Assembly (NCBI GenBank): GCA_002841495.1
Contig: PGZV01000001.1
Location: forward strand, 186,001 to 250,000
Direction: 5' to 3'
Source: Firmicutes bacterium HGW-Firmicutes-2
GTDB lineage: Bacteria > Bacillota > Clostridia > Lachnospirales > Vallitaleaceae
DNA: 64,000 nt
Shown: positions 643-17,156 of the stretch, in pieces
How the letters are laid out: each line of letters begins with the position of its first letter
How positions within the stretch are numbered: the stretch's first letter is position 1
The notes under the pieces: model-generated
The model's input: the letters and a program-made list of their open reading frames with translations, nothing else
What the model was told of the DNA's origin: nothing
Database searches by the model: none
Made by a program: the position numbers and the translations under genes

Positions 643-1599
643 ATGGCAATTACTTTACTAGAAGCAAAGAAAAACGTACAAGACGCCTTAACAATGGGTG
701 TTATCGATGAATTTAGAAAATCTAGTTTCATTTTGGATGCAATGACTTTTGATGATGCAGTATCCCCAACAGGTGGCGGTGCTACATTGACTTATGGTTA
801 TACAAGACTTACCACTCAACCAACTGCTGCATTTAGAGATGTCAACGAAGAATACACACCTAGCAACGTGGCTAAGCTACGCTACACTGCTGACCTTAAA
901 GTGTTTGGTGGATCGTTCGAGATTGATCGTATCATCGCTAATATGGGTGGTATTGTTGGTGAAGTTCAACTCAACATCGAGCAAAAAGTAAAGGCTGCTA
1001 GAGCTTTATTTAATGACACTTTCATCAATGGCGATGCTGCTGTTAATGCGAAAGCATTTGACGGACTTGAAAAAGCATTAACAGGATCCAGTACTGAGTT
1101 TGACCCAGGCACTGCAATTGATCTATCTACATCTGCAAACATTGACACCAACTACAAGTACTTCATTGATGCACTTGATGAGTTCCTTCTTGGACTTGAT
1201 GGTAAGCCAGACTTCTTGGCGGTCAATAGCAAGTTGTTAGCTAAATTAAGAGCTTGTGCAAGACGTGTGGGTACTTACTCAACAACCAGCAATGAGTGGG
1301 GTGTAAACGTAGGTGCTTATGATGGCATTACTTTGGTTGATATGGGTACAAAAGCAGGCACTAACGACAATGTAATTAGTACTGATGGCTCTACTGGCGT
1401 GACTTCTCTTTATGCTGGCCGATTAGGTATGGATGGTCTTCACGGTATTTCAATGGCTGGTCAATCACCTGTAAACATTTGGTTGCCTGATTTCTCAACT
1501 GCTGGTGCAGTTAAAAAAGGTGAAGTTGAGATGGTTGCAGCTATCGCTCTTAAAGCATCTAAAGCAGCTGGTGTTATGAGGAAAATCAAAGTTCAATAA
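643..1599 (+). CDS. Phage major capsid protein
   Basis: Main shell subunit of the phage head, 318 aa. It starts MAITLLEAKK after a strong GGAGG site. The N-terminal part (QDALTMGVIDEFRKSSFILDA), a β-rich middle and the segment GGSFEIDRIIANMGG followed by a long helix (about residues 100-125) match the HK97-fold coat proteins of Clostridia and Bacillus siphophages. There is no N-terminal scaffold domain, which fits the separate scaffold gene directly upstream. Its position between scaffold and head-completion genes makes the call firm. I did not assign an exact Pfam family. Confidence 0.9.
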   Translation: MAITLLEAKKNVQDALTMGVIDEFRKSSFILDAMTFDDAVSPTGGGATLTYGYTRLTTQPTAAFRDVNEEYTPSNVAKLRYTADLKVFGGSFEIDRIIANMGGIVGEVQLNIEQKVKAARALFNDTFINGDAAVNAKAFDGLEKALTGSSTEFDPGTAIDLSTSANIDTNYKYFIDALDEFLLGLDGKPDFLAVNSKLLAKLRACARRVGTYSTTSNEWGVNVGAYDGITLVDMGTKAGTNDNVISTDGSTGVTSLYAGRLGMDGLHGISMAGQSPVNIWLPDFSTAGAVKKGEVEMVAAIALKASKAAGVMRKIKVQ

Positions 1600-1614
1600 G
1601 AGGGGGAAAAGAAT

Positions 1615-2175
1615 ATGGCTAGAATATATTCACCCAGTCAATCCCATAGTTGTGATTATGGGGTTGACTTTATTAATGGCGTTGCAGTTGTACCCGATGC
1701 AGATACTGATGTATTAGCTTGGTTTACTTCAAAGGGATACACCGTTGTTACGGGCAAAGACGTCTTGTCACCTTGGGACTACCTCAAAGCAGAGGAATTA
1801 GCAATGTTCTCAGCTTATGCCGGCATAAACCCAACTGGATTAACAAAACTTGAGTTAGTGACACAAATTGAATCACAGTTGGAACTGATGAAAATTGAAA
1901 TAACTGAATTTACTGCAATCGATAATGTAGATGGTGGTACCGTTGCTGTTCCTACTTATGCAGATGCGGCTGCTGTTATTGCTGCATTACCTGTTTTAGT
2001 AGAATGTGACGCAGGCACAGTGTTAGTTCCTGTAACGACTTGGGTTGATACAGATACTTATGACATTGAGACTGCAGGTTCCTACACTTTTACGGCAACA
2101 ATAGGTACGCTACCCGTTCCATATGCTAATACAGGAGCATTCACTGTAACTGTAGAAGTGATTATTGCAGAGTAA
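1615..2175 (+). CDS. Phage structural protein with C-terminal Ig-like domain
   Basis: Unnamed head protein of 186 aa, likely a capsid decoration or accessory protein. Three parts are visible. Residues 1-45 form a module with the pattern IYSPSQ...GVxFxNGVA...LxWFxSKGY that recurs in the next gene. Residues 52-92 (LSPWDYLKAEELAMFSAYAG) resemble a HeH/LEM-like helical SAP-type motif. Residues 95-186 are Thr/Val-rich β-strands ending YTFTATIGTLP...FTVTVEVIIAE, typical of bacterial Ig-like domains that decorate phage surfaces. It lies 15 nt after the capsid gene with a good RBS. The decoration role is inferred from position and the Ig-like fold. Confidence 0.6.
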   Translation: MARIYSPSQSHSCDYGVDFINGVAVVPDADTDVLAWFTSKGYTVVTGKDVLSPWDYLKAEELAMFSAYAGINPTGLTKLELVTQIESQLELMKIEITEFTAIDNVDGGTVAVPTYADAAAVIAALPVLVECDAGTVLVPVTTWVDTDTYDIETAGSYTFTATIGTLPVPYANTGAFTVTVEVIIAE

Positions 2176-2188
2176 GGAGGTAAAGAAA

Positions 2189-2380
2189 ATGGCTAAAATT
2201 ATAGCACCAAATAAACAATATAACGGTGTTTCAGCCGGTGTAGCCTTTGCTAATGGGACAGGGGAGAGTGATAACCCTGTCCTTTTAGATTGGTTTAAGT
2301 CTAAGGGCTATGAAGTTGAAACTGAACAGCCTGAAATCAAGAAGGAAGTCAAAAGCAAAGCAGCAAAGAAGGGGGAATAA
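2189..2380 (+). CDS. Small phage head protein, paralogue of the preceding N-terminal module
   Basis: A 63-aa protein with a Lys/Glu-rich tail. Its first 45 residues (MAKIIAPNKQYNGVSAGVAF...NPVLLDWFKSKGYEVE) align with the N-terminal module of the previous gene, so the two share an origin. An upstream ATG at 2165 overlaps the previous gene, but AAGGAGG at 2174-2180 lies 8 nt before the ATG at 2189, which decides the start. Function unknown. Its place between capsid and connector genes suggests a head-associated protein. Confidence 0.6.
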   Translation: MAKIIAPNKQYNGVSAGVAFANGTGESDNPVLLDWFKSKGYEVETEQPEIKKEVKSKAAKKGE

Positions 2381-2383
2381 CTC

Positions 2384-2707
2384 ATGATCTATGCTACTAG
2401 TCAAGAATTGAGCGAAGAGCTGCTAGAGTTAGCTAGTAGCAAAGTGGATGAACTCACCTTTAACCGGATAGTGGAAATAGGCTTTGATAACCTGTCAGAT
2501 TTTCAGAAAGACAAGGTCATTAAGGCCACGTTAGCCCAAGCTCAGCACTACGAGGACTATGGAACAGATGTGGCCAGCTTGTCTGGATTCAATGTGTCTG
2601 GTCTAAGCATGTCTTTTAAAGACAACGGACCGGTACCAACAGGCGTTAGTCCTGTAGCTTATAGTCACCTAACTCAATCAGGTCTAATGTACCGGGGGTG
2701 GTTTTAA
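2384..2707 (+). CDS. Phage head-tail connector / adaptor protein
   Basis: Probable adaptor that binds below the portal ring, 107 aa. The all-helical N-terminal two thirds (SQELSEELLELASSKVDELTFNRI...QKDKVIKATLAQAQHYEDYG) followed by a loop with GLSMSFKDN is the usual layout of gp6/gp15-type connectors of siphophages, and the gene sits where they sit, right before the head-closure gene. The stop overlaps the next start as TAATG, so the two are translationally coupled. The family was assigned by architecture and synteny. Confidence 0.65.
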   Translation: MIYATSQELSEELLELASSKVDELTFNRIVEIGFDNLSDFQKDKVIKATLAQAQHYEDYGTDVASLSGFNVSGLSMSFKDNGPVPTGVSPVAYSHLTQSGLMYRGWF

Positions 2708-3042
2708 TGAAACTTCCAAAGCTTCCACCTTATTTGTTTAATCAAGAATGGGAAGTCAACATGGACCAAGACGGATTAAGTGAAGATGGTGAGCCACTGT
2801 CAGCGGTAACTGTTACATCTAAGTTTTGGTTTTCGGATAAACCACATCAGGTGATGGACGCAGAGAAGCGCCTTATTCGTCTTGAGGGTACATTGACAAT
2901 ACCAGGTGACTTATTCCCTGCCTTTGCCCAATTGACGACAGGAACCGCTATAAGAGGCGATAAGAGCTATAAAGTATATCGTTGCAAGCGTCCACGGAAT
3001 CCTGATGGCAGTGTTTACGCCACGATAATGGAGTTGATGTAA
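2707..3042 (+). CDS. Phage head closure / minor capsid protein
   Basis: A 111-aa protein, mostly β-strand (TSKFWFSDKPHQVMDAEKRL, GTLTIPGDLFP, GDKSYKVYRCKRP), in the position of the head-closure (stopper) protein that plugs the connector after packaging. A GTG at 2698 is in frame. However, GGGGGTGG just upstream and the TAATG overlap with the previous stop favour the ATG at 2707. The stop again overlaps the next start, so this is part of a tightly coupled run of head-completion genes. No enzyme motif is visible. Confidence 0.6.
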   Translation: MKLPKLPPYLFNQEWEVNMDQDGLSEDGEPLSAVTVTSKFWFSDKPHQVMDAEKRLIRLEGTLTIPGDLFPAFAQLTTGTAIRGDKSYKVYRCKRPRNPDGSVYATIMELM

Positions 3043-3413
3043 TGCAAGTCAGAGTTAAGATGAATAAGAATGTAATGGCCATGCTGACCAAGGCTACAAG
3101 CACAGCTCTAACTCAAACCGCAGAGGCCATTAAAACAGATGTGATATCTAAAAACATCATGCCTTTTGATGATGGTACCATGCAGAATGAGAGTGTATTC
3201 ATTGACGATTCAAAGGCGAACACAGGCATTGTATTGTTAAGTGTCGATACGCCATATGCAAGACGCTTGTACTTTCATCCTGAATACAACTTTAGCACTG
3301 AAGAAAACCCAAATGCACAAGGGCTATGGTTTGAGCCTTGGATCAGTGGTGAACATAAAAATCTTGCCATGAAAGCATTCAGGGAAAATTACAAACGATT
3401 AACGGGGGTGTGA
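3042..3413 (+). CDS. Phage minor capsid protein (Minor_capsid_2-like)
   Basis: A 123-aa protein matching the minor capsid family found between stopper and tail-terminator genes in Clostridia and Listeria phages. It has an N-terminal helix with ALTQTAEAIKTDV, a central DGTMQNESVFID, and the aromatic segment YARRLYFHPEYNFSTEENPNAQ followed by LWFEPWISGE. This fits the HK97 gp10-like tail-completion fold. It overlaps its upstream neighbour by one base (TAATG). Confidence 0.7.
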   Translation: MQVRVKMNKNVMAMLTKATSTALTQTAEAIKTDVISKNIMPFDDGTMQNESVFIDDSKANTGIVLLSVDTPYARRLYFHPEYNFSTEENPNAQGLWFEPWISGEHKNLAMKAFRENYKRLTGV

Positions 3414-11656: not shown

Positions 11657-11668
11657 GGAGAAATAAAT

Positions 11669-12019
11669 ATGATAACAAAGATTAAATTTATAGGCATTCA
11701 AAACATAGAAAGTAACCCAACAGTAGAGGTCTTATTTGAAACTGATGGGTCATCAGAAATAAGACATACATTTGATTTTAAGACGGGCTCATTAGAAGAG
11801 TTTTTACCAGAAGGTGATGATCAAAAACCTATTGAATTGATAGATGCCTTAGTAAGGTTTTCCATTAATAAAACTTCGCTTGATACTGGAATATCTGTTG
11901 ATGAAAGCATTATGCCCAGTAAAGTGGTTATCGATAGAATAGGTGGACTTGAAGAAGATAATATCAACCTAATGCTTGCTGTTGCAGAAGTATATGAACT
12001 GATGTTAGGAGGTGTCTAA
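11669..12019 (+). CDS. Hypothetical phage protein
   Basis: Not recognised. A 116-aa acidic protein with an N-terminal β-hairpin (KIKFIGIQNIESNPTVEVLF) and a C-terminal helical part (NINLMLAVAEVYELMLGG). It is preceded by AAGGAG and ends immediately before the next start (TAAATG). It lies between the collar fibre and two CD1375-like mini-proteins, where phages often carry small structural or chaperone genes. No membrane segment or enzyme motif is visible. Confidence 0.6.
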   Translation: MITKIKFIGIQNIESNPTVEVLFETDGSSEIRHTFDFKTGSLEEFLPEGDDQKPIELIDALVRFSINKTSLDTGISVDESIMPSKVVIDRIGGLEEDNINLMLAVAEVYELMLGGV

Positions 12020-12127
12020 ATGGTAGAGATATACGTAAAATTGATTAGAATGGGGTTGAAAACTATTGAAGAAGTTCCGGCAACGATTCGTGAAAAAGTT
12101 GAAATTGCATTGGCAACTACTAACTGA
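12020..12127 (+). CDS. CD1375-like mini-protein 1
   Basis: A 35-aa protein (MVEIYVKLIRMGLKTIEEVP followed by ATIREKVEIAL) encoded directly after the previous stop and preceded by AGGAGGTG. The pattern of a short strand, basic KTIEEVP turn and amphipathic helix matches the CD1375 family of very small proteins found between tail and lysis genes of Clostridia prophages. The family has no known function. The downstream gene encodes a second, related copy. Confidence 0.75.
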   Translation: MVEIYVKLIRMGLKTIEEVPATIREKVEIALATTN

Positions 12128-12152
12128 GTTTAAATGGAATGGAGGCGACGAT

Positions 12153-12278
12153 ATGGACGTAATTTATGCAACTTTAATTATCAGAGGATTCAGGACCTTT
12201 GCACAAGTACCTATGACATTGCAAGGTAGAGTTCGGGATGTATTAGTTGAACTGGATATGGGACATTTAGCAGAATAG
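12153..12278 (+). CDS. CD1375-like mini-protein 2
   Basis: A 41-aa protein (MDVIYATLIIRGFRTFAQVP, then a helix ending DMGHLAE) that aligns along its length with the 35-aa protein just upstream: xVIYxxLIxxGxxTxxxVP...V...L. The reading frame is open upstream to 12066, but GGAGG at 12141-12145 lies 7 nt before the ATG at 12153, and only this part resembles the family. Role unknown. Confidence 0.75.
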   Translation: MDVIYATLIIRGFRTFAQVPMTLQGRVRDVLVELDMGHLAE

Positions 12279-12288
12279 AGGTGTAAAA

Positions 12289-13644
12289 ATGAATGAAGAA
12301 ATTTTAGTACTTGTCGACGATGGCCATGGTGAGATGACGCCAGGCAAAAGAACGCCAGCTTTTACAGACGGATCAGTAGTAAGAGAACATCAATTTAATC
12401 AACCGGTAGCGACAAAACTAGTGGCACTTTTAAAGCATAGCGGATTCTCGGCCCACAACATAACCCAAGGCACCGCAGATGTGACACTACCAACAAGGGT
12501 TAAAATAGCCAACGCTCTTGCAGCCATTCACTTGAGAAAATATCCTAATGGCAAAGTAATATTTATAAGCGTACATTATAATGCCATGAGTGATAAATGG
12601 TCAGCACCAAGCGGCGTTGAGACTTATCATTGCTATGGATCAGTAGAGGGCAAAAGACTTGCTGGTGATGTACATAGTGAGATATTAAAAGGCACGGTAC
12701 AAAGCAACAGAGGAGTTAAAGAGGCTGGTTATTATGTAATCAAATACACGAGTATGCCAGCAATTTTAGTGGAACTTGGCTTTATGAGCAATCTTAGAGA
12801 GGCATCCTTGATGCTTGACCAAGACTTTCAATACGAGTGTGCAAGTGAGATATGCGAAGGCGTTAAGAAGTACTTTAACATCACAGATGCAACACCAAAG
12901 CCTTTGCCGGTTCTAACACCAAGTAAAGAATTGGGTTACTCAAAACTTAGACATTTACATAACAATTATCTGACTGATGTTCATATTTACAAATCAAATA
13001 AACCACCTGAGTTCGTCCTGGGGACGCCAAGAAAGTATGAGCCTATACAAAGTATAGCTTCTAAGTATAAAGGCGTTAAAGCGATTGTAAACGCCAATCT
13101 ATTTCCTTTTTCGGCTACTGAACAAGCTAAATCACCCTTAGGGTATGGTTTGATCATAACGGACAACGGACAAGGTAAAAAGATAGCGGACTACTACCAG
13201 AACTCATCACCAAACTTTGTAGATCTAATCCCCTGGAAAAACGGAAGTGTAACAATCGAGACAGTACAATCTCATGCAGTGGACAATAAGAGGCTTGCAG
13301 GCATCCAGGGCAACGCCTTTTTTGGTGCAAGTGGCTGCTATGCCCTAAAGATTGACGGTAAAGACTCAAAGCTCTACTGGGATAAAGTAACACACGCAAA
13401 CTCCTATACAGACCGCACCATGGTTGGTGTAGACGCTGATGGTAACTGGCATATGATTATAGCAGAGTGCAACAGTAACTCAAAAGGACTTAGAGCGATT
13501 GACCAAGTTAATTTATGTAACGACCTTAAGTTAACCGATGTAGTCAATTTTGACGGTGGTGGATCAAGCGCCATGATGATAAATGGTAAATTTGTAACCA
13601 AAAACACAGGCCGAAGCATACCGGCTGCCTTTATTTGTAAATAA
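12289..13644 (+). CDS. Endolysin: N-acetylmuramoyl-L-alanine amidase fused to phosphodiester glycosidase domain
   Basis: Phage lysin of 451 aa. Residues 5-195 are an Amidase_3 zinc amidase, which cuts between muramic acid and the stem peptide. Visible zinc ligands are H13 (DDGHG), E33 (REHQ) and H96 (SVHYNA), and the catalytic Glu is E162 (AILVELGFMSN). Residues 220-451 match the NAGPA/phosphodiester glycosidase family, with FVLGTPRKYE, KAIVNANLF, and the hallmark FDGGGSSAMMINGKFV near the end. No signal peptide is present, so release depends on the holin genes next door. Amidase plus NAGPA is an uncommon pairing. The second domain may act on wall glycopolymers or serve for binding. Confidence 0.85.
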   Translation: MNEEILVLVDDGHGEMTPGKRTPAFTDGSVVREHQFNQPVATKLVALLKHSGFSAHNITQGTADVTLPTRVKIANALAAIHLRKYPNGKVIFISVHYNAMSDKWSAPSGVETYHCYGSVEGKRLAGDVHSEILKGTVQSNRGVKEAGYYVIKYTSMPAILVELGFMSNLREASLMLDQDFQYECASEICEGVKKYFNITDATPKPLPVLTPSKELGYSKLRHLHNNYLTDVHIYKSNKPPEFVLGTPRKYEPIQSIASKYKGVKAIVNANLFPFSATEQAKSPLGYGLIITDNGQGKKIADYYQNSSPNFVDLIPWKNGSVTIETVQSHAVDNKRLAGIQGNAFFGASGCYALKIDGKDSKLYWDKVTHANSYTDRTMVGVDADGNWHMIIAECNSNSKGLRAIDQVNLCNDLKLTDVVNFDGGGSSAMMINGKFVTKNTGRSIPAAFICK

Positions 13645-13676
13645 AATCAACAGGCTGACTTAAAAGGAGATGAGCA

Positions 13677-13970
13677 ATGAATGAATTATTAATAGGGATA
13701 ATAGGATTTGTAATAACATCAAGTATAGGACTATTAGCAAGAATGATAAGAAACGACAGAATAAGGCATCAACAGGATCACGAAATGCTTAAGATAGGTA
13801 TGACCCAATTATTAAAAAGTCAGATACTAGATATATACAACAGGTCGATTGAAAAAGGTCATGTAGGAGAACATGAAAAAGATGTTGCCAATGATCTTTA
13901 CAAATCCTACGAATCAATGGGTGGTAACGGATACATGAAACAGGTCATGGAAAAAATAGGAAGATTATAG
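13677..13970 (+). CDS. Phage membrane protein, holin-associated
   Basis: A 97-aa protein with one N-terminal membrane helix (LLIGIIGFVITSSIGLLA), a basic stretch (RMIRNDRIRHQQ) and a soluble helical tail with LLKSQILDIYNRSIEKGHVG and YKSYESMGGNGYM. This pattern occurs in small lysis-cassette proteins of Firmicutes phages that accompany a holin. It sits between endolysin and a holin with an AGGAG site. It could be a second holin, an antiholin or a pinholin regulator. Confidence 0.6.
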   Translation: MNELLIGIIGFVITSSIGLLARMIRNDRIRHQQDHEMLKIGMTQLLKSQILDIYNRSIEKGHVGEHEKDVANDLYKSYESMGGNGYMKQVMEKIGRL

Positions 13971-13981
13971 GAGGAATAAAA

Positions 13982-14179
13982 ATGAAAACATTAACTATTA
14001 AATGGTTTAAAGCAGCATTAATCAGAGCATTAAAAACAGTAGGTCAAACTGCATCAGGTATGCTTGCAGTTGGAATGGCGGTAAATGAAGTGGATTGGAT
14101 GTATGTATTGTCAGTAGCATCAGTAGCAGGTGTGCTATCACTATTAACAAGCATAGCAGGATTGCCGGAAGTTGAATAA
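13982..14179 (+). CDS. Phage holin (r1t-like)
   Basis: A 65-aa protein with two hydrophobic segments (about residues 18-35 and 40-58) and the pattern WFKAALIRALKTVGQTASGM followed by a second helix SVASVAGVLSLLTSIAGLP. This is the r1t-type holin layout, with both ends probably on the same side of the membrane. It forms the hole that releases the endolysin. It starts 11 nt after the preceding gene with GGAGG upstream and is the last typical phage gene of the operon. Confidence 0.85.
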   Translation: MKTLTIKWFKAALIRALKTVGQTASGMLAVGMAVNEVDWMYVLSVASVAGVLSLLTSIAGLPEVE

Positions 14180-14336
14180 CTAAAAAGCCTAATCAAAAGA
14201 AACAGTGTTTTGCCAACCCTATGGCTATGATTTGCGTCCACTGTTCTTATAGTCTAGTATGGTAATAGACGAGAAATGGACCATACAGTGTGAGGGGGTA
14301 GACCTTTAGCTATCCCCTCATATCTAATTAATAATA
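14180..14336. other. Intergenic region after the lysis genes
   Basis: No gene is seen. An inverted repeat AACAGTG (14201-14207) / CACTGTT (14239-14245) encloses 31 nt. The strong hairpin at 14291-14320 ends the region and may close the phage late operon. Confidence 0.5.
14291..14320 (+). terminator. Hairpin, probable end of phage late transcript
   Basis: An 11-bp stem TGAGGGGGTAG / CTATCCCCTCA with one G-U pair and an 8-nt loop. It has no T-run after it, so it may need a factor or serve to stabilise RNA. Confidence 0.45.
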
Positions 14337-14365
14337 TTGCAAAAAACTTAATAAAACATTATAAT
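14337..14365 (+). promoter_or_regulatory. Promoter of the protease module
   Basis: TTGCAA (14337-14342), 17 bp, then a consensus TATAAT (14360-14365). It lies beyond the phage late hairpin and upstream of the protease gene, giving the two-gene cargo module its own vegetative-type promoter. A weaker possible second promoter is TTTACA (14524) with 16 bp to TATAGG (14546). Confidence 0.6.
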
Positions 14366-14401
14366 ATAATCAGTCATATAATCACCGATTAGTGACTCTC
14401 C

Positions 14402-14432
14402 AAAAAAGCCCTTAGGACAAAATCCTAGGGGC
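14402..14432 (-). terminator. Hairpin with a T-run on the minus strand
   Basis: A 10-bp stem GCCCTTAGGA / TCCTAGGGGC with one G-U pair and a CAAAA loop. Six A's precede it on the plus strand, so it is a good intrinsic terminator only for leftward transcripts. In the rightward leader of the protease gene it would be a stable 5' hairpin. Confidence 0.5.
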
Positions 14433-14611
14433 CTTAAGAATTGTAAAGCTATATATAGTAAAATAAGTTGAAATATATACAACATATAGTATGGAACTTA
14501 ATATTTGTTAAATTTTCTTAAGTTTTACAGCAATCTCCTTGTCATTATAGGCAAAAAGTGATAAAATTACCAAATACAGACAAAAATGTCGTGAGGGCAA
14601 GAGGTTATAAT

Positions 14612-15661
14612 ATGAAATATATAGTAAATCTAAATCAACCCTTCAACAAGGCCATAGAAGATGATTTGGTTAATTCTAATATAGAAATTGAATTTGTATC
14701 GAATGTACTACCATATATTATTTGCATTGCAGATAGTAGTAGTCGATTCTGTAATAAGGATTACATTAATAGTGTGGATAAAGAACGTATTGGTTCCTAT
14801 CAGAATTCTGAATTTACTGAGACTTTTATTATCAATCCTAGAATATCAAAAAGCGCTCTAATCGATTCTAGTTTAATAGGTTGGGGTGGTACTAAGATTT
14901 TTGTTTTAGATTCGGGTGTTGATAAAAATAAGGTTCATGTTACTGATGTGAAAGATTTTGTTGGAACAGGAATATTGGATAGAAAGAATCATGGAACATT
15001 TGTCACAAAAATAATCAAGCATTTTGCTCGAGGCGCCAATATTTACATAGGGAAAATCGGTGAAGTAGATCCAAGCGAATCAGCACTTCTGCAAGCTATT
15101 GAATGGGCACATTCTAGTGGTGCAGATGTTATTAATATTTCCTCTATGTTTGCAAAAGAAGATAAATATGGGAATTTTATTAATTGTGATGGATCTTGTA
15201 ATTTATGTAAATTAATAGATTTTGTGAGTGGTGATGGTATGACAGTCGTTGTAGCGGCGGGAAATCAAAACCAAGTTGAAAATAGTATTTATTGTCCGGC
15301 TACAGCAAGAGAAGCAGTTACTGTGGCAGCAATAAGCGAAGACAGTAGTAGATTAGCTGAGTATTCAAGTAAAGGATTAATTGGTGGTAATAAACCAAAT
15401 CTTCTTGCTCCAGGAGATGTATCAATAGATGGAATCAGAAAATGTGGTACATCTTTTGCTGCACCTATTGTTTCTGGAATATTGGCAGCTATAACAAGTA
15501 AATTCAGTACTTCGCAAGAAGCACTTGAAGTTATATACAAAACTGCTACTGATTTAAAATTACCGAGTCATGAACAAGGTAAAGGTTTGATTGATGTAAA
15601 AAGAATAGTGGAGGTGATATCAAATGAATCTATTGATATTAAACGTCAGGGACACGAATGA
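14612..15661 (+). CDS. Cytosolic subtilisin-like (S8) serine protease
   Basis: Serine endopeptidase of the subtilase family, 349 aa, in the cargo position of the prophage. The catalytic triad is intact: D100 (FVLDSGVD), H127 (NHGTFVTK), S281 (GTSFAAPIVSG), with oxyanion N218 (AAGNQNQ). There is no signal peptide or membrane segment, so it should act in the cytosol. The first ~65 residues (KYIVNLNQPFNKAIEDDL...) fit an I9-type propeptide. A CDGSCNLC segment inserts near residue 195. A GTG at 14558 is in frame, but GAGG at 14601-14604 and the propeptide start support the ATG at 14612. The gene for a free propeptide-like protein overlaps its end. Possible roles are host-takeover, toxin-antitoxin or anti-phage cargo. 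This is inference. Confidence 0.85.
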   Translation: MKYIVNLNQPFNKAIEDDLVNSNIEIEFVSNVLPYIICIADSSSRFCNKDYINSVDKERIGSYQNSEFTETFIINPRISKSALIDSSLIGWGGTKIFVLDSGVDKNKVHVTDVKDFVGTGILDRKNHGTFVTKIIKHFARGANIYIGKIGEVDPSESALLQAIEWAHSSGADVINISSMFAKEDKYGNFINCDGSCNLCKLIDFVSGDGMTVVVAAGNQNQVENSIYCPATAREAVTVAAISEDSSRLAEYSSKGLIGGNKPNLLAPGDVSIDGIRKCGTSFAAPIVSGILAAITSKFSTSQEALEVIYKTATDLKLPSHEQGKGLIDVKRIVEVISNESIDIKRQGHE

Positions 15662-15824
15662 CCTAATTGAATTAGAAAAAATCTGTAATGTGATTTTTGT
15701 TTCTAAGTTAATGAATGTAGTACATATTGAAATCGAAGATTCTAAAATTGCTGAGCTTGAAAATATTGATAACGTATTAGAATTCTATGAAAATAGAATA
15801 GGTGAATATCAACCAGCAGTATAA
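15624..15824 (+). CDS. Stand-alone subtilisin propeptide-like (I9-type) protein
   Basis: A 66-aa protein whose predicted order of strand, helix, strand, strand, helix, strand (MNLLILNV; DTNDLIELEKIC; NVIFVSK; NVVHIEIED; SKIAELENID; NVLEFYENR) is that of the I9 subtilisin propeptide. Propeptides fold the protease and then inhibit it. Free I9 inhibitors such as yeast PBI2 and mushroom POIA1 are known. The gene overlaps the protease by 38 nt and has its own strong GGAGGTG (15609-15615), so the two are co-expressed. The likely role is chaperone or inhibitor of the adjacent protease, working like an antitoxin. The fold is inferred by eye, not by search. Confidence 0.65.
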   Translation: MNLLILNVRDTNDLIELEKICNVIFVSKLMNVVHIEIEDSKIAELENIDNVLEFYENRIGEYQPAV

Positions 15825-15884: not shown

Positions 15885-15919
15885 ATAAGGTCCTTGGTTA
15901 ATCCCGAAGGCCTTATTTT
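15885..15919 (+). terminator. Terminator of the protease/propeptide operon
   Basis: Stem ATAAGG(T)CCTT / AAGG..CCTTAT with one bulge, followed by TTTTATT. It closes the two-gene module on the plus strand. Confidence 0.75.
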
Positions 15920-15930
15920 ATTGCTTAAAA

Positions 15931-16074: not shown

Positions 16075-16081
16075 GAGGGGA

Positions 16082-16155
16082 CGCACACAGTAGGACTTGA
16101 ACCCACAACATTCTGATCCGAAGTCAGACGCTCTATCCAATTGAACTATGCGTGC
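16082..16155 (-). tRNA. tRNA-Arg (anticodon TCG)
   Basis: A 74-nt cloverleaf on the minus strand. Acceptor arm GCACGCA pairs with TGTGTGC (one G-U), the D-loop region is AGTTCAATTGGATAGAGC, the anticodon arm is TCTGA-CTTCGGA-TCAGA with anticodon TCG, and the T-arm has GGGTTCAAGTCC. The CCA end is not encoded. The 5' end is 11 nt after the dnaC stop, so it may be co-transcribed with dnaC. Its 3' end faces the prophage, as expected for an attachment site. Confidence 0.93.
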
Positions 16156-16166
16156 ATATACAAAAT

Positions 16167-17156
16167 TTATAAAAACTTTTGTAAGCGTATATCAGAACCG
16201 ATAAAGCCTACAGATAAGTAATTACCATAAATTCGTGAAACGATACGATCGGTATACTGGTTGCTCCATGCGCTTGGTGGTAAGTTGGTAGAGATGACAA
16301 CAGGCTTTTTGTCCAGCATGCGTGTGTTGATGATGTTAAACAGCTCAGACGTAGTAAAAGCATTGTTAATCTCAGTACCAAGGTCATCAATGATAAGTAG
16401 ATCACATTCATAGAGGTTCTGAATCTCATCTAATGTTACATGGCCTTCCTCGTTATGGAAGCGGTAAGTTTCAAGAAGCTTAAACAAACCAAAAGCCGTC
16501 AGATAGATAACCGTATGCCCTGTATCAAGGAGTGATTTTGCAATACAGTTACATAAATAAGTCTTACCTAGACCGGCTTGACCGTAGAGTATGAGATTGT
16601 TGTATTTTGTGTCAAAATGTTCAGCAAAGTTATAACAGAGTTTATAATTGAAGGCTGCAATCTCTCTTGGTGATTTACCAATATTTTTATCTACTTCACT
16701 ACTATAATGGTCAAGAGAGAAATTGTCAAAGTTTTCTTTTTGTAAAATAGCATTTAAATGACTTTGCTCATAAGAAAAGTTAATGATTTCTTGGTTGAGG
16801 CAATGACATTTGGCATGATCGATATAGCCGGAATCCTTACAATCTTCGCAATCATAGACTGGTGCCAGGTAATCACTTGGATAACCAGCATCTACCAGGG
16901 TTTCTTTTTTCTGTAAAGATAGACGACTAATTTTTTCTTGTAGATCTGTCAGGAGTGCCTGTCGCTGACTTGGGTTTTCCACAATCTGCCGTGTTAAGGA
17001 GGCAGATAAGGAAGAGATTTGCTCATCTATGGTCTGAAGTATAGGGTAAGCTTTATAGACCTTATCTTTTCGGGCATAATGTATCTGCTGATTTTTTAAA
17101 CGACGTTGGTCGATAATATTTAGGATGTGTTTAAACTGTGACCTTGTAAGACCCAT
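16167..17156 (-). CDS. dnaC: Replicative helicase loader (DnaC/DnaI-type AAA+ ATPase)
   Basis: ATPase that loads the replicative helicase at origins and restarted forks, 329 aa. A four-Cys zinc-binding segment (CEDCKDSGYIDHAKCHC) near residues 103-119 is followed by the AAA+ core with Walker A GQAGLGKT (about 196), Walker B LLIIDDLG, sensor VVISTNLPP and arginine-finger region DRIVSRI. The zinc segment plus IstB-like core matches Clostridia primosome loaders rather than transposon IstB. It lies 1 nt after dnaD on the same strand, forming a primosome operon like dnaB-dnaI of Bacillus. Confidence 0.92.
   Translation of the reverse strand: MGLTRSQFKHILNIIDQRRLKNQQIHYARKDKVYKAYPILQTIDEQISSLSASLTRQIVENPSQRQALLTDLQEKISRLSLQKKETLVDAGYPSDYLAPVYDCEDCKDSGYIDHAKCHCLNQEIINFSYEQSHLNAILQKENFDNFSLDHYSSEVDKNIGKSPREIAAFNYKLCYNFAEHFDTKYNNLILYGQAGLGKTYLCNCIAKSLLDTGHTVIYLTAFGLFKLLETYRFHNEEGHVTLDEIQNLYECDLLIIDDLGTEINNAFTTSELFNIINTRMLDKKPVVISTNLPPSAWSNQYTDRIVSRIYGNYLSVGFIGSDIRLQKFL

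Follow-up and report, generated by a model that had tools for sequence, protein, structure and literature searches.

The window, a stretch of 64,000 nucleotides from the genome of Firmicutes bacterium HGW-Firmicutes-2, carries two overlapping prophage genes that code for a cytosolic-looking subtilase and for a small protein with the predicted fold of a subtilisin propeptide (Table 1). The pair is probably a mobile cytosolic protease that is restrained by a cognate propeptide-fold partner provided in trans, and may be a normally latent effector. A protease that is kept in the cytosol must be restrained, and the recurrence of the pair on other mobile elements gives it the look of a portable protease under restraint in the normal state. 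The family is sparse and consists of four lineages: the window, a group of Brevibacillus phages represented by Jimmer1, and two genomes, G502 and G755, from another class of the phylum.

Table 1. Features of the protease locus in the window (positions counted from the first nucleotide of the window).
Feature	Position	Strand	Basis
Subtilase, cytosolic-looking, 349 aa	14612..15661	+	ORF list; Pfam Peptidase_S8 9e-24
N-terminal domain of protease, residues 1-76, propeptide-like at family level	14612..14839	+	profile comparison with small proteins, E 1.7e-5
C-x3-C-x2-C codons (Cys192, 196, 199)	15185..15208	+	alignment
Codon of fourth invariant Cys (Cys228)	15293..15295	+	alignment
GGAGGTG ribosome-binding site of small gene, within protease gene	15610..15616	+	sequence
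Overlap of protease and small gene, 38 nt	15624..15661	+	ORF list
Stand-alone protein with predicted subtilisin-propeptide fold, 66 aa	15624..15824	+	AlphaFold pLDDT 87.6; subtilisin propeptides matched by Foldseek and VIA
Terminator-like hairpin with U-rich tail	15885..15925	+	RNA fold -12.7 kcal/mol, z -2.6
tRNA-Arg(tcg), prophage integration site	16079..16156	-	ARAGORN
attR core	16081..16128	.	48-nt repeat, 97.9%; attL copy beyond the window, at C7:163180-163227

The protease gene starts with an ATG; an in-frame GTG at 14558 would give an alternative protein of 367 aa. The protein has the Asp, His and Ser of the S8 subtilases as well as the oxyanion Asn, in motifs that align and can be read directly in the sequence (ILDSG, HGT, AAGN and GTSFA), and it matches PF00082. 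No further Pfam family was found in it up to an E value of 1. A signal peptide is not evident by eye, and the proteases of the relatives likewise begin straight with the N-terminal domain. The description as an intact D/H/N/S subtilase without signal peptide, given in an earlier note on this DNA, is thus borne out. The family does not fit the definition of the Bacillus-type ISPs, which have a short propeptide with a LIPY/F motif. By regular expression, LIP[YF] is absent from all four family proteases, and in the alignment the catalytic domain of the three intact members begins only after about 75-95 residues. The ISP propeptide is described as typically 16-20 residues long, with LIPY/F (PMC6220982).

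The small gene, its overlap with the protease gene and its own ribosome-binding site had been noted before and are readily seen in the sequence. GGAG or GGAGG precedes the small gene in all four loci, and the overlap is 38, 44, 32 and 38 nt in the window, Jimmer1, G502 and G755, respectively, with the starts of the relatives as chosen here (others are possible). Because the arrangement recurs in three other diverged loci, it goes beyond chance. The further claim that the unit has its own promoter found no support, as 11 promoter-like sites were found compared to 11.9 in shuffled sequences. The claim of a separate terminator stands in part: the hairpin with U-rich tail is present, but it is absent from the list of a consensus scan. 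Another strong hairpin is located in the gap between the holin and protease genes (14398-14445, -17.2 kcal/mol, z -3.1), and is not followed by a U-run on the plus strand.

The fold of the small protein was predicted by AlphaFold from a four-row alignment. The model has the order of elements E2-8, H15-20, E22-27, E32-37, H39-47 and E51-56, which is the beta-alpha-beta-beta-alpha-beta fold of I9 (clan JC), as supported by Foldseek and VIA. In the Foldseek search of the PDB, ranks 1 to 18 are occupied by subtilisin propeptides or proproteases only (best E 0.016, TM 0.76; none at E 0.001 or better). The best VIA-align match is the Tk-subtilisin propeptide (3vv2_B, Z 9.4, 2.3 A over 62 residues). 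Ferredoxin-like folds score about 6.5, below the propeptide match, with the exception of NapD (8.2, at an rmsd of 7.8). POIA1 (1v5i_B) is also among the VIA matches, with Z 6.7. The I9-like fold suggested in the earlier note is therefore what the prediction returned. At the sequence level, a Pfam scan of the window small protein gave nothing above the cut-off, and one of the four small proteins reaches E 0.019 with Inhibitor I9 (PF05922), at 16 bits compared to a cut-off of 21.2. The last seven residues of the model are of low confidence, with a pLDDT below 50 in the C-terminal tail. In known complexes, it is the C-terminal tail of the propeptide that enters the active-site cleft. A DNA-binding part was not recognised in the small protein, which consists of a single propeptide-fold domain. 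The model also matches the Jimmer2 entry in BFVD, but this match is not independent, since the relatives are in the alignment used for the model. BFVD further contains an unnamed 64-aa viral protein (A0A141HRY7, 24% identity, TM 0.73 to the model), which may be an additional family member.

By profile comparison, the N-terminal domains of the proteases and the small proteins are related as families (E 1.7e-5 as a single comparison, probability 78%). The summed pairwise scores between N-domains and small proteins exceed those of all 2000 shuffles, and of the 24 ways to pair them, the one within loci scores highest, if only narrowly (184 versus 175). When single N-domains were scored against the small-protein profile, which contains their own partners, those of G755 (23.2) and G502 (21.3) were above all 150 control segments (maximum 15.1), but those of the window (11.6) and Jimmer (13.7) were not. 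In the pairwise alignment of the window N-domain with its small protein, the two are out of register. Kinship is thus demonstrated for the family rather than for the window copy by itself. The model of the whole protease is poor (pLDDT 46.5) and hence unusable for the fold of the N-domain. The earlier proposals of an I9-like protease N-terminus, and of an inhibitor or chaperone domain both in cis and in trans, thus stand at the level of family relatedness, but not for the window N-domain taken alone.

A second family trait is a cluster of cysteines. The motif C-x3/4-C-x2-C and a fourth Cys are common to all four family proteases, and the motif is missing from all 28 further S8 ORFs retained by a motif filter. 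When the proteases are aligned to subtilisin BPN', the loop at GPSGSAAL corresponds to the cluster and the Tyr of GYPG to the fourth Cys, positions which we take to be the rim of the S1-S4 pockets. Control of the protease by zinc or redox state through the four cysteines is a guess. A subtilisin with a redox switch, PfSUB1, has been described (PMC4024747).

The Brevibacillus phages Jimmer1, Jimmer2, Osiris and Powder (seven records, some of them duplicates) encode a protease that is 35% identical to the one in the window. In Jimmer1, it is followed by an overlapping 64-aa gene, and the pair occupies part of the interval from endolysin to integrase, flanked by further genes on either side. Abouo and Davies, which were included in the phage records searched and have no protease match, have other genes in the endolysin-integrase interval. 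As both belong to the Jimmer cluster (PMC4909266), the pair is optional cargo. The same source states that the cluster may be temperate, and its main text uses the word "protease" once, for another gene. G502 was found with a profile of two proteases, which picked out two of 398 genomes of the phylum, the window's own included. G755, of the same genus as G502, was found with a three-row profile (two of 97 genomes of that class). In both, a gene of 64 or 65 aa overlaps the protease gene. The two-gene order anticipated in other genomes thus occurs in Jimmer-type phages and in two tRNA-flanked loci, and all four recognisable homologues of the protease keep the small gene. The four proteases form one clade (support 100/99, with a long-branch warning), and their identity is about 33% across the lineages.

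Searches with less or more information mark out the limits of the family. With the single protein as query, one of four genomes of the genus and one of 295 of the order were hit, in both cases the window's own, and no family member was found in the genome_contigs set. Single-sequence and two-row-alignment scans of genome_contigs and viral_contigs returned only the same prophage and Jimmer. With the four-row profile, 63 of 391 genomes of the window's class had a subtilase at 1e-25, none above 140 bits except the window copy, which scores 543 bits, being itself in the profile. Among 398 genomes of the phylum, largely the same sample as in the two-protease search, only G502 and G755 passed 1e-42. 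The four-row scan of viral_contigs gave the window phage, Jimmer and 14 more distant subtilases, two of which passed the motif filter. As a check free of profiles, the G755 small protein was compared by tblastn to 50,697 phage records (E limit 10). All seven matches were from Brevibacillus, and each fell on the gene that follows the homologous protease (E 0.04, 33% identity). The same kind of search with the window small protein, and tblastn with that of G502, found no family member in the phage records, and BLASTP left the window small protein and Jimmer gp43 unaligned.

In total, 32 distinct S8 ORFs from the loci retrieved passed the filter (G[TN]S.A.P, HG and an end inside the locus, with identical ORFs counted once). 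The four family members have the Cys motif and a small gene scoring at least 106 bits, by construction, as they are in the profile. For the 28 others, which include 14 of the 19 background loci from the search of 391 genomes, the best ORF after the protease scored 2.8 bits. Loci dropped before this count include L013, L018, L073, L077, L080, L082, L083, L087-L093 and L096-L100. Plasmid subtilases in seven loci (L006-L009, L012-L014) have no Cys motif and no recognisable small gene, with L013 running off its end and therefore unscored for the latter. A profile search for orphan small genes in eight genomes recovered the three chromosomal copies already known and, beyond them, only a weak match in G001 (E 0.03). 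In viral_contigs, 40 loci matched a DNA pattern modelled on the beginning of the small gene; among those fetched, the family protease was present only in the window phage contig and the Jimmer contig.

In the window, the pair lies between an r1t-type holin gene, assigned by Pfam, and tRNA-Arg, in agreement with the earlier placement between phage lysis genes and a tRNA. The attR repeat is the 3' part of tRNA-Arg and recurs on the same contig (C7). A tyrosine-type integrase (C7:163255-164406, PF00589, 6e-23) is encoded just inside the attL repeat, and is followed by IrrE-like and HTH genes. The att repeats and the placement of the integrase define the pair as the last prophage cargo before attR. 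The prophage, of 38.9 kb, is inserted in tRNA-Arg, and with its integrase, repressor-type genes, lysis genes and att repeats in a tRNA gene it conforms to a temperate prophage. Three presumed structural genes had no Pfam match. An IMG/VR contig (38,570 bases) carries an identical protease. Elsewhere in the window, the region 12289-13644 encodes an endolysin-like protein in which Amidase_3 is joined to a phosphodiester glycosidase (NAGPA) domain.

The chromosomal relatives are also next to tRNA genes, so that the pair is on phages or tRNA-flanked inserts in all four loci. In G502, the pair is flanked by tRNA-Ala on one side and by a repeated copy of the 3' half and tail of this tRNA on the other. 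The G755 pair is part of an insert that, judged against G502, splits tRNA-Pro at the anticodon loop and has an intact tRNA-Pro in its middle. Neither integrase nor structural phage genes were recognised by eye among the ORFs around these two pairs. Of five ORFs from the two loci compared to PHROGs, three had no match and one, from the IS next to the G755 insert, was transposase-like. Within that insert, an ORF of 110 aa matches phrog_15901, of unknown function, at 1.8e-26, so this insert may be a prophage remnant. In G754, the orthologous tRNA-Ala site has a Fic/DOC gene instead of the pair. The G502 protease gene has a broken, shortened frame in the region of the N-domain and linker, with no ATG, GTG or TTG before the catalytic Asp, next to an intact small gene. 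If the protease is the harmful part, it would be expected to decay before its partner, although this is a single case. More generally, the tRNA-Ala and tRNA-Pro sites in this genus carry short inserts bounded by partial tRNA copies, in which no integrase was recognised (L011 of G502, 826-3311; L117 of G754; L066 of G755, 11657-15080). Their cargo comprises the protease pair, a weakly MORN-like 97-aa gene, the Fic/DOC gene and the 110-aa gene matching phrog_15901. The inserts resemble either cargo cassettes in tandem, mobilised by an integrase acting in trans, or prophage remnants.

The roles proposed for the pair in the earlier note are favoured only by where it lies, by its mobility, by the overlap of its genes, by its patchy occurrence in closely related phages and by the single decayed copy. 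By analogy with known propeptides, the small protein is likely to bind the active-site cleft of the protease and to keep it folded but inactive in the lysogen. The small protein would be read from the overlapping frame straight after the protease, on the same message, and the overlap would lead to roughly matched synthesis of the two. The free propeptide-fold protein would then occupy the active site and leave the enzyme latent. Release could follow when the supply of inhibitor stops, either because another phage shuts off the host or because the element is lost; alternatively, the four-Cys cluster beside the substrate pockets could change state. That the released protease is harmful, and the module a latent effector akin to a protease toxin with an inhibitor antitoxin, is put forward tentatively. 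The roles proposed in the earlier note (toxin-antitoxin-like, superinfection exclusion or abortive infection) are plausible inferences. A still more speculative step would be to see here a class of protease toxin-antitoxin or abortive-infection modules, in which the antitoxin is a free copy of the toxin's propeptide type, a four-Cys sensor sits at the substrate pockets, and phages and integrase-less tRNA-flanked inserts spread the module.

Other readings of the pair have to be considered. It could be a split zymogen: the small protein would chiefly assist folding in trans, and the protease would have no part as a toxin but serve the ordinary programme of the phage or lysogen, for example by trimming proteins of the phage or its host. 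Known propeptides are chaperones as well as inhibitors, and given the N-domain in cis, the free copy may act as a foldase instead of an inhibitor. Moreover, the pair follows the lysis genes both in the window and in Jimmer1, and other phage subtilases are encoded with no small gene of this kind. Against this reading, an N-domain is already present in cis, Abouo and Davies lack the pair, which is optional cargo, and the pair persists beside tRNA genes in two genomes in which integrase or structural phage genes were not recognised around it. We consider this reading unlikely.

Slightly less likely still is that the pair is defence or superinfection-exclusion cargo, triggered not by inhibitor loss but by a specific phage signal that is sensed via the four-Cys cluster near the S1-S4 pockets. 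The conservation of the four cysteines in all four members, the absence of the motif from the 28 other filtered ORFs, the alignment of the cysteines with the BPN' pocket loops, the precedent of PfSUB1 and the Fic/DOC gene at the same tRNA-Ala site in G754 would fit such sensing. However, the cysteines could simply bind structural zinc, no known defence gene stands beside the pair in the window, and the PADLOC matches are limited to part of a generic subtilase model and to weak ones with IetS. Prophage ends do collect cargo, and the protease of G502 is broken, as might be the case for a neutral hitchhiker near the attachment site with a functionally unlinked small gene. This is most improbable, as pairing, overlap, internal ribosome-binding site and shared domain are conserved in four lineages despite the low identity of their proteases. 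A mobile protease restrained by its propeptide-fold partner, and tentatively a latent effector, remains the reading that we favour.

Subtilase propeptides are cis-acting chaperone-inhibitors. Stand-alone propeptide inhibitors are described in fungi and apicomplexa (PMC6993865). Among the latter, SUB1-ProM inhibits SUB1 and its gene adjoins subtilisin-like genes in malaria parasites (PMC6993865), and TgMIC5 of Toxoplasma is a stand-alone propeptide mimic (PMC6993865, PMC4024747). The window small protein resembles SUB1-ProM of Plasmodium and TgMIC5 in being a small free protein of subtilisin-propeptide fold, which in their case restrains a subtilase; unlike the window pair, they are eukaryotic, belong to secretory compartments and are not phage-borne. 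To our knowledge, their genes do not overlap with a protease gene. POIA1 of Pleurotus and PBI2 of yeast are also free I9-fold proteins, which inhibit subtilases, and we know of no case in which they are encoded with the protease in one overlapping unit. Protealysin is an M4 metalloprotease, and emfourin belongs to another inhibitor family. The window pair is similar to them in combining an intracellular bacterial protease with a small protein partner (emfourin is a proteinaceous inhibitor), but its protease is of the S8 family, and protealysin-emfourin is not described as phage-borne. In Serratia, this protease and inhibitor are encoded in one operon, and protealysin cleaves its substrates only without emfourin (PMC9505478). 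IspA of Bacillus is, like the window protease, a cytosolic subtilase, and has a proteinaceous inhibitor, IPI. It differs in its short propeptide with LIPY/F, and IPI has an Ig fold and, in B. subtilis, a gene away from the subtilisin genes (PMC6220982, PMC3901451).

With the IetAS anti-phage system, the pair shares an S8 protease, which in IetAS stands in a defence setting. The partner of IetS is the ATPase IetA. Matches to IetS or IetAS are partial, at best 1.8e-6 in PADLOC and 15 bits compared to a cut-off of 900 in NCBIfam, and the nearest ATPase-type gene (16167-17156, minus strand) is IstB/DnaA-like and lies beyond attR. Models for mycosin (77.6 of 278.75 bits), QhpE (37.7 of 165) and PatA (30.7 of 421.05) are far under their cut-offs, and roles in RiPP maturation or type VII were therefore dropped. 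PHROG 3677, "protease", matches part of the window protein (9.7e-35). The architecture resembles that of type II toxin-antitoxin modules, with adjacent, overlapping genes on mobile DNA and a small protein partner in all four loci. The statement that no named system has this form agrees with searches of an open-licence library, in which no phage-borne or bacterial subtilase with a propeptide in trans was found; it has to be qualified, since SUB1-ProM (PMC6993865) and protealysin-emfourin (PMC9505478) are parallels.

A protease with a proteinaceous I9-fold partner is thus known already. New is that the pair is phage-borne, bacterial and overlapping, and that the partner is akin to the N-domain of its own protease family. 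A bacterial mobile module here supplies a propeptide-type domain in trans as a gene of its own, while a related domain stays in cis. How free propeptide inhibitors of the SUB1-ProM type originate can be studied with the pair as a natural bacterial test case. Should the module prove to be a latent effector, it would add restrained proteolysis, with a very simple two-protein logic, to the ways in which prophages control or protect their hosts.
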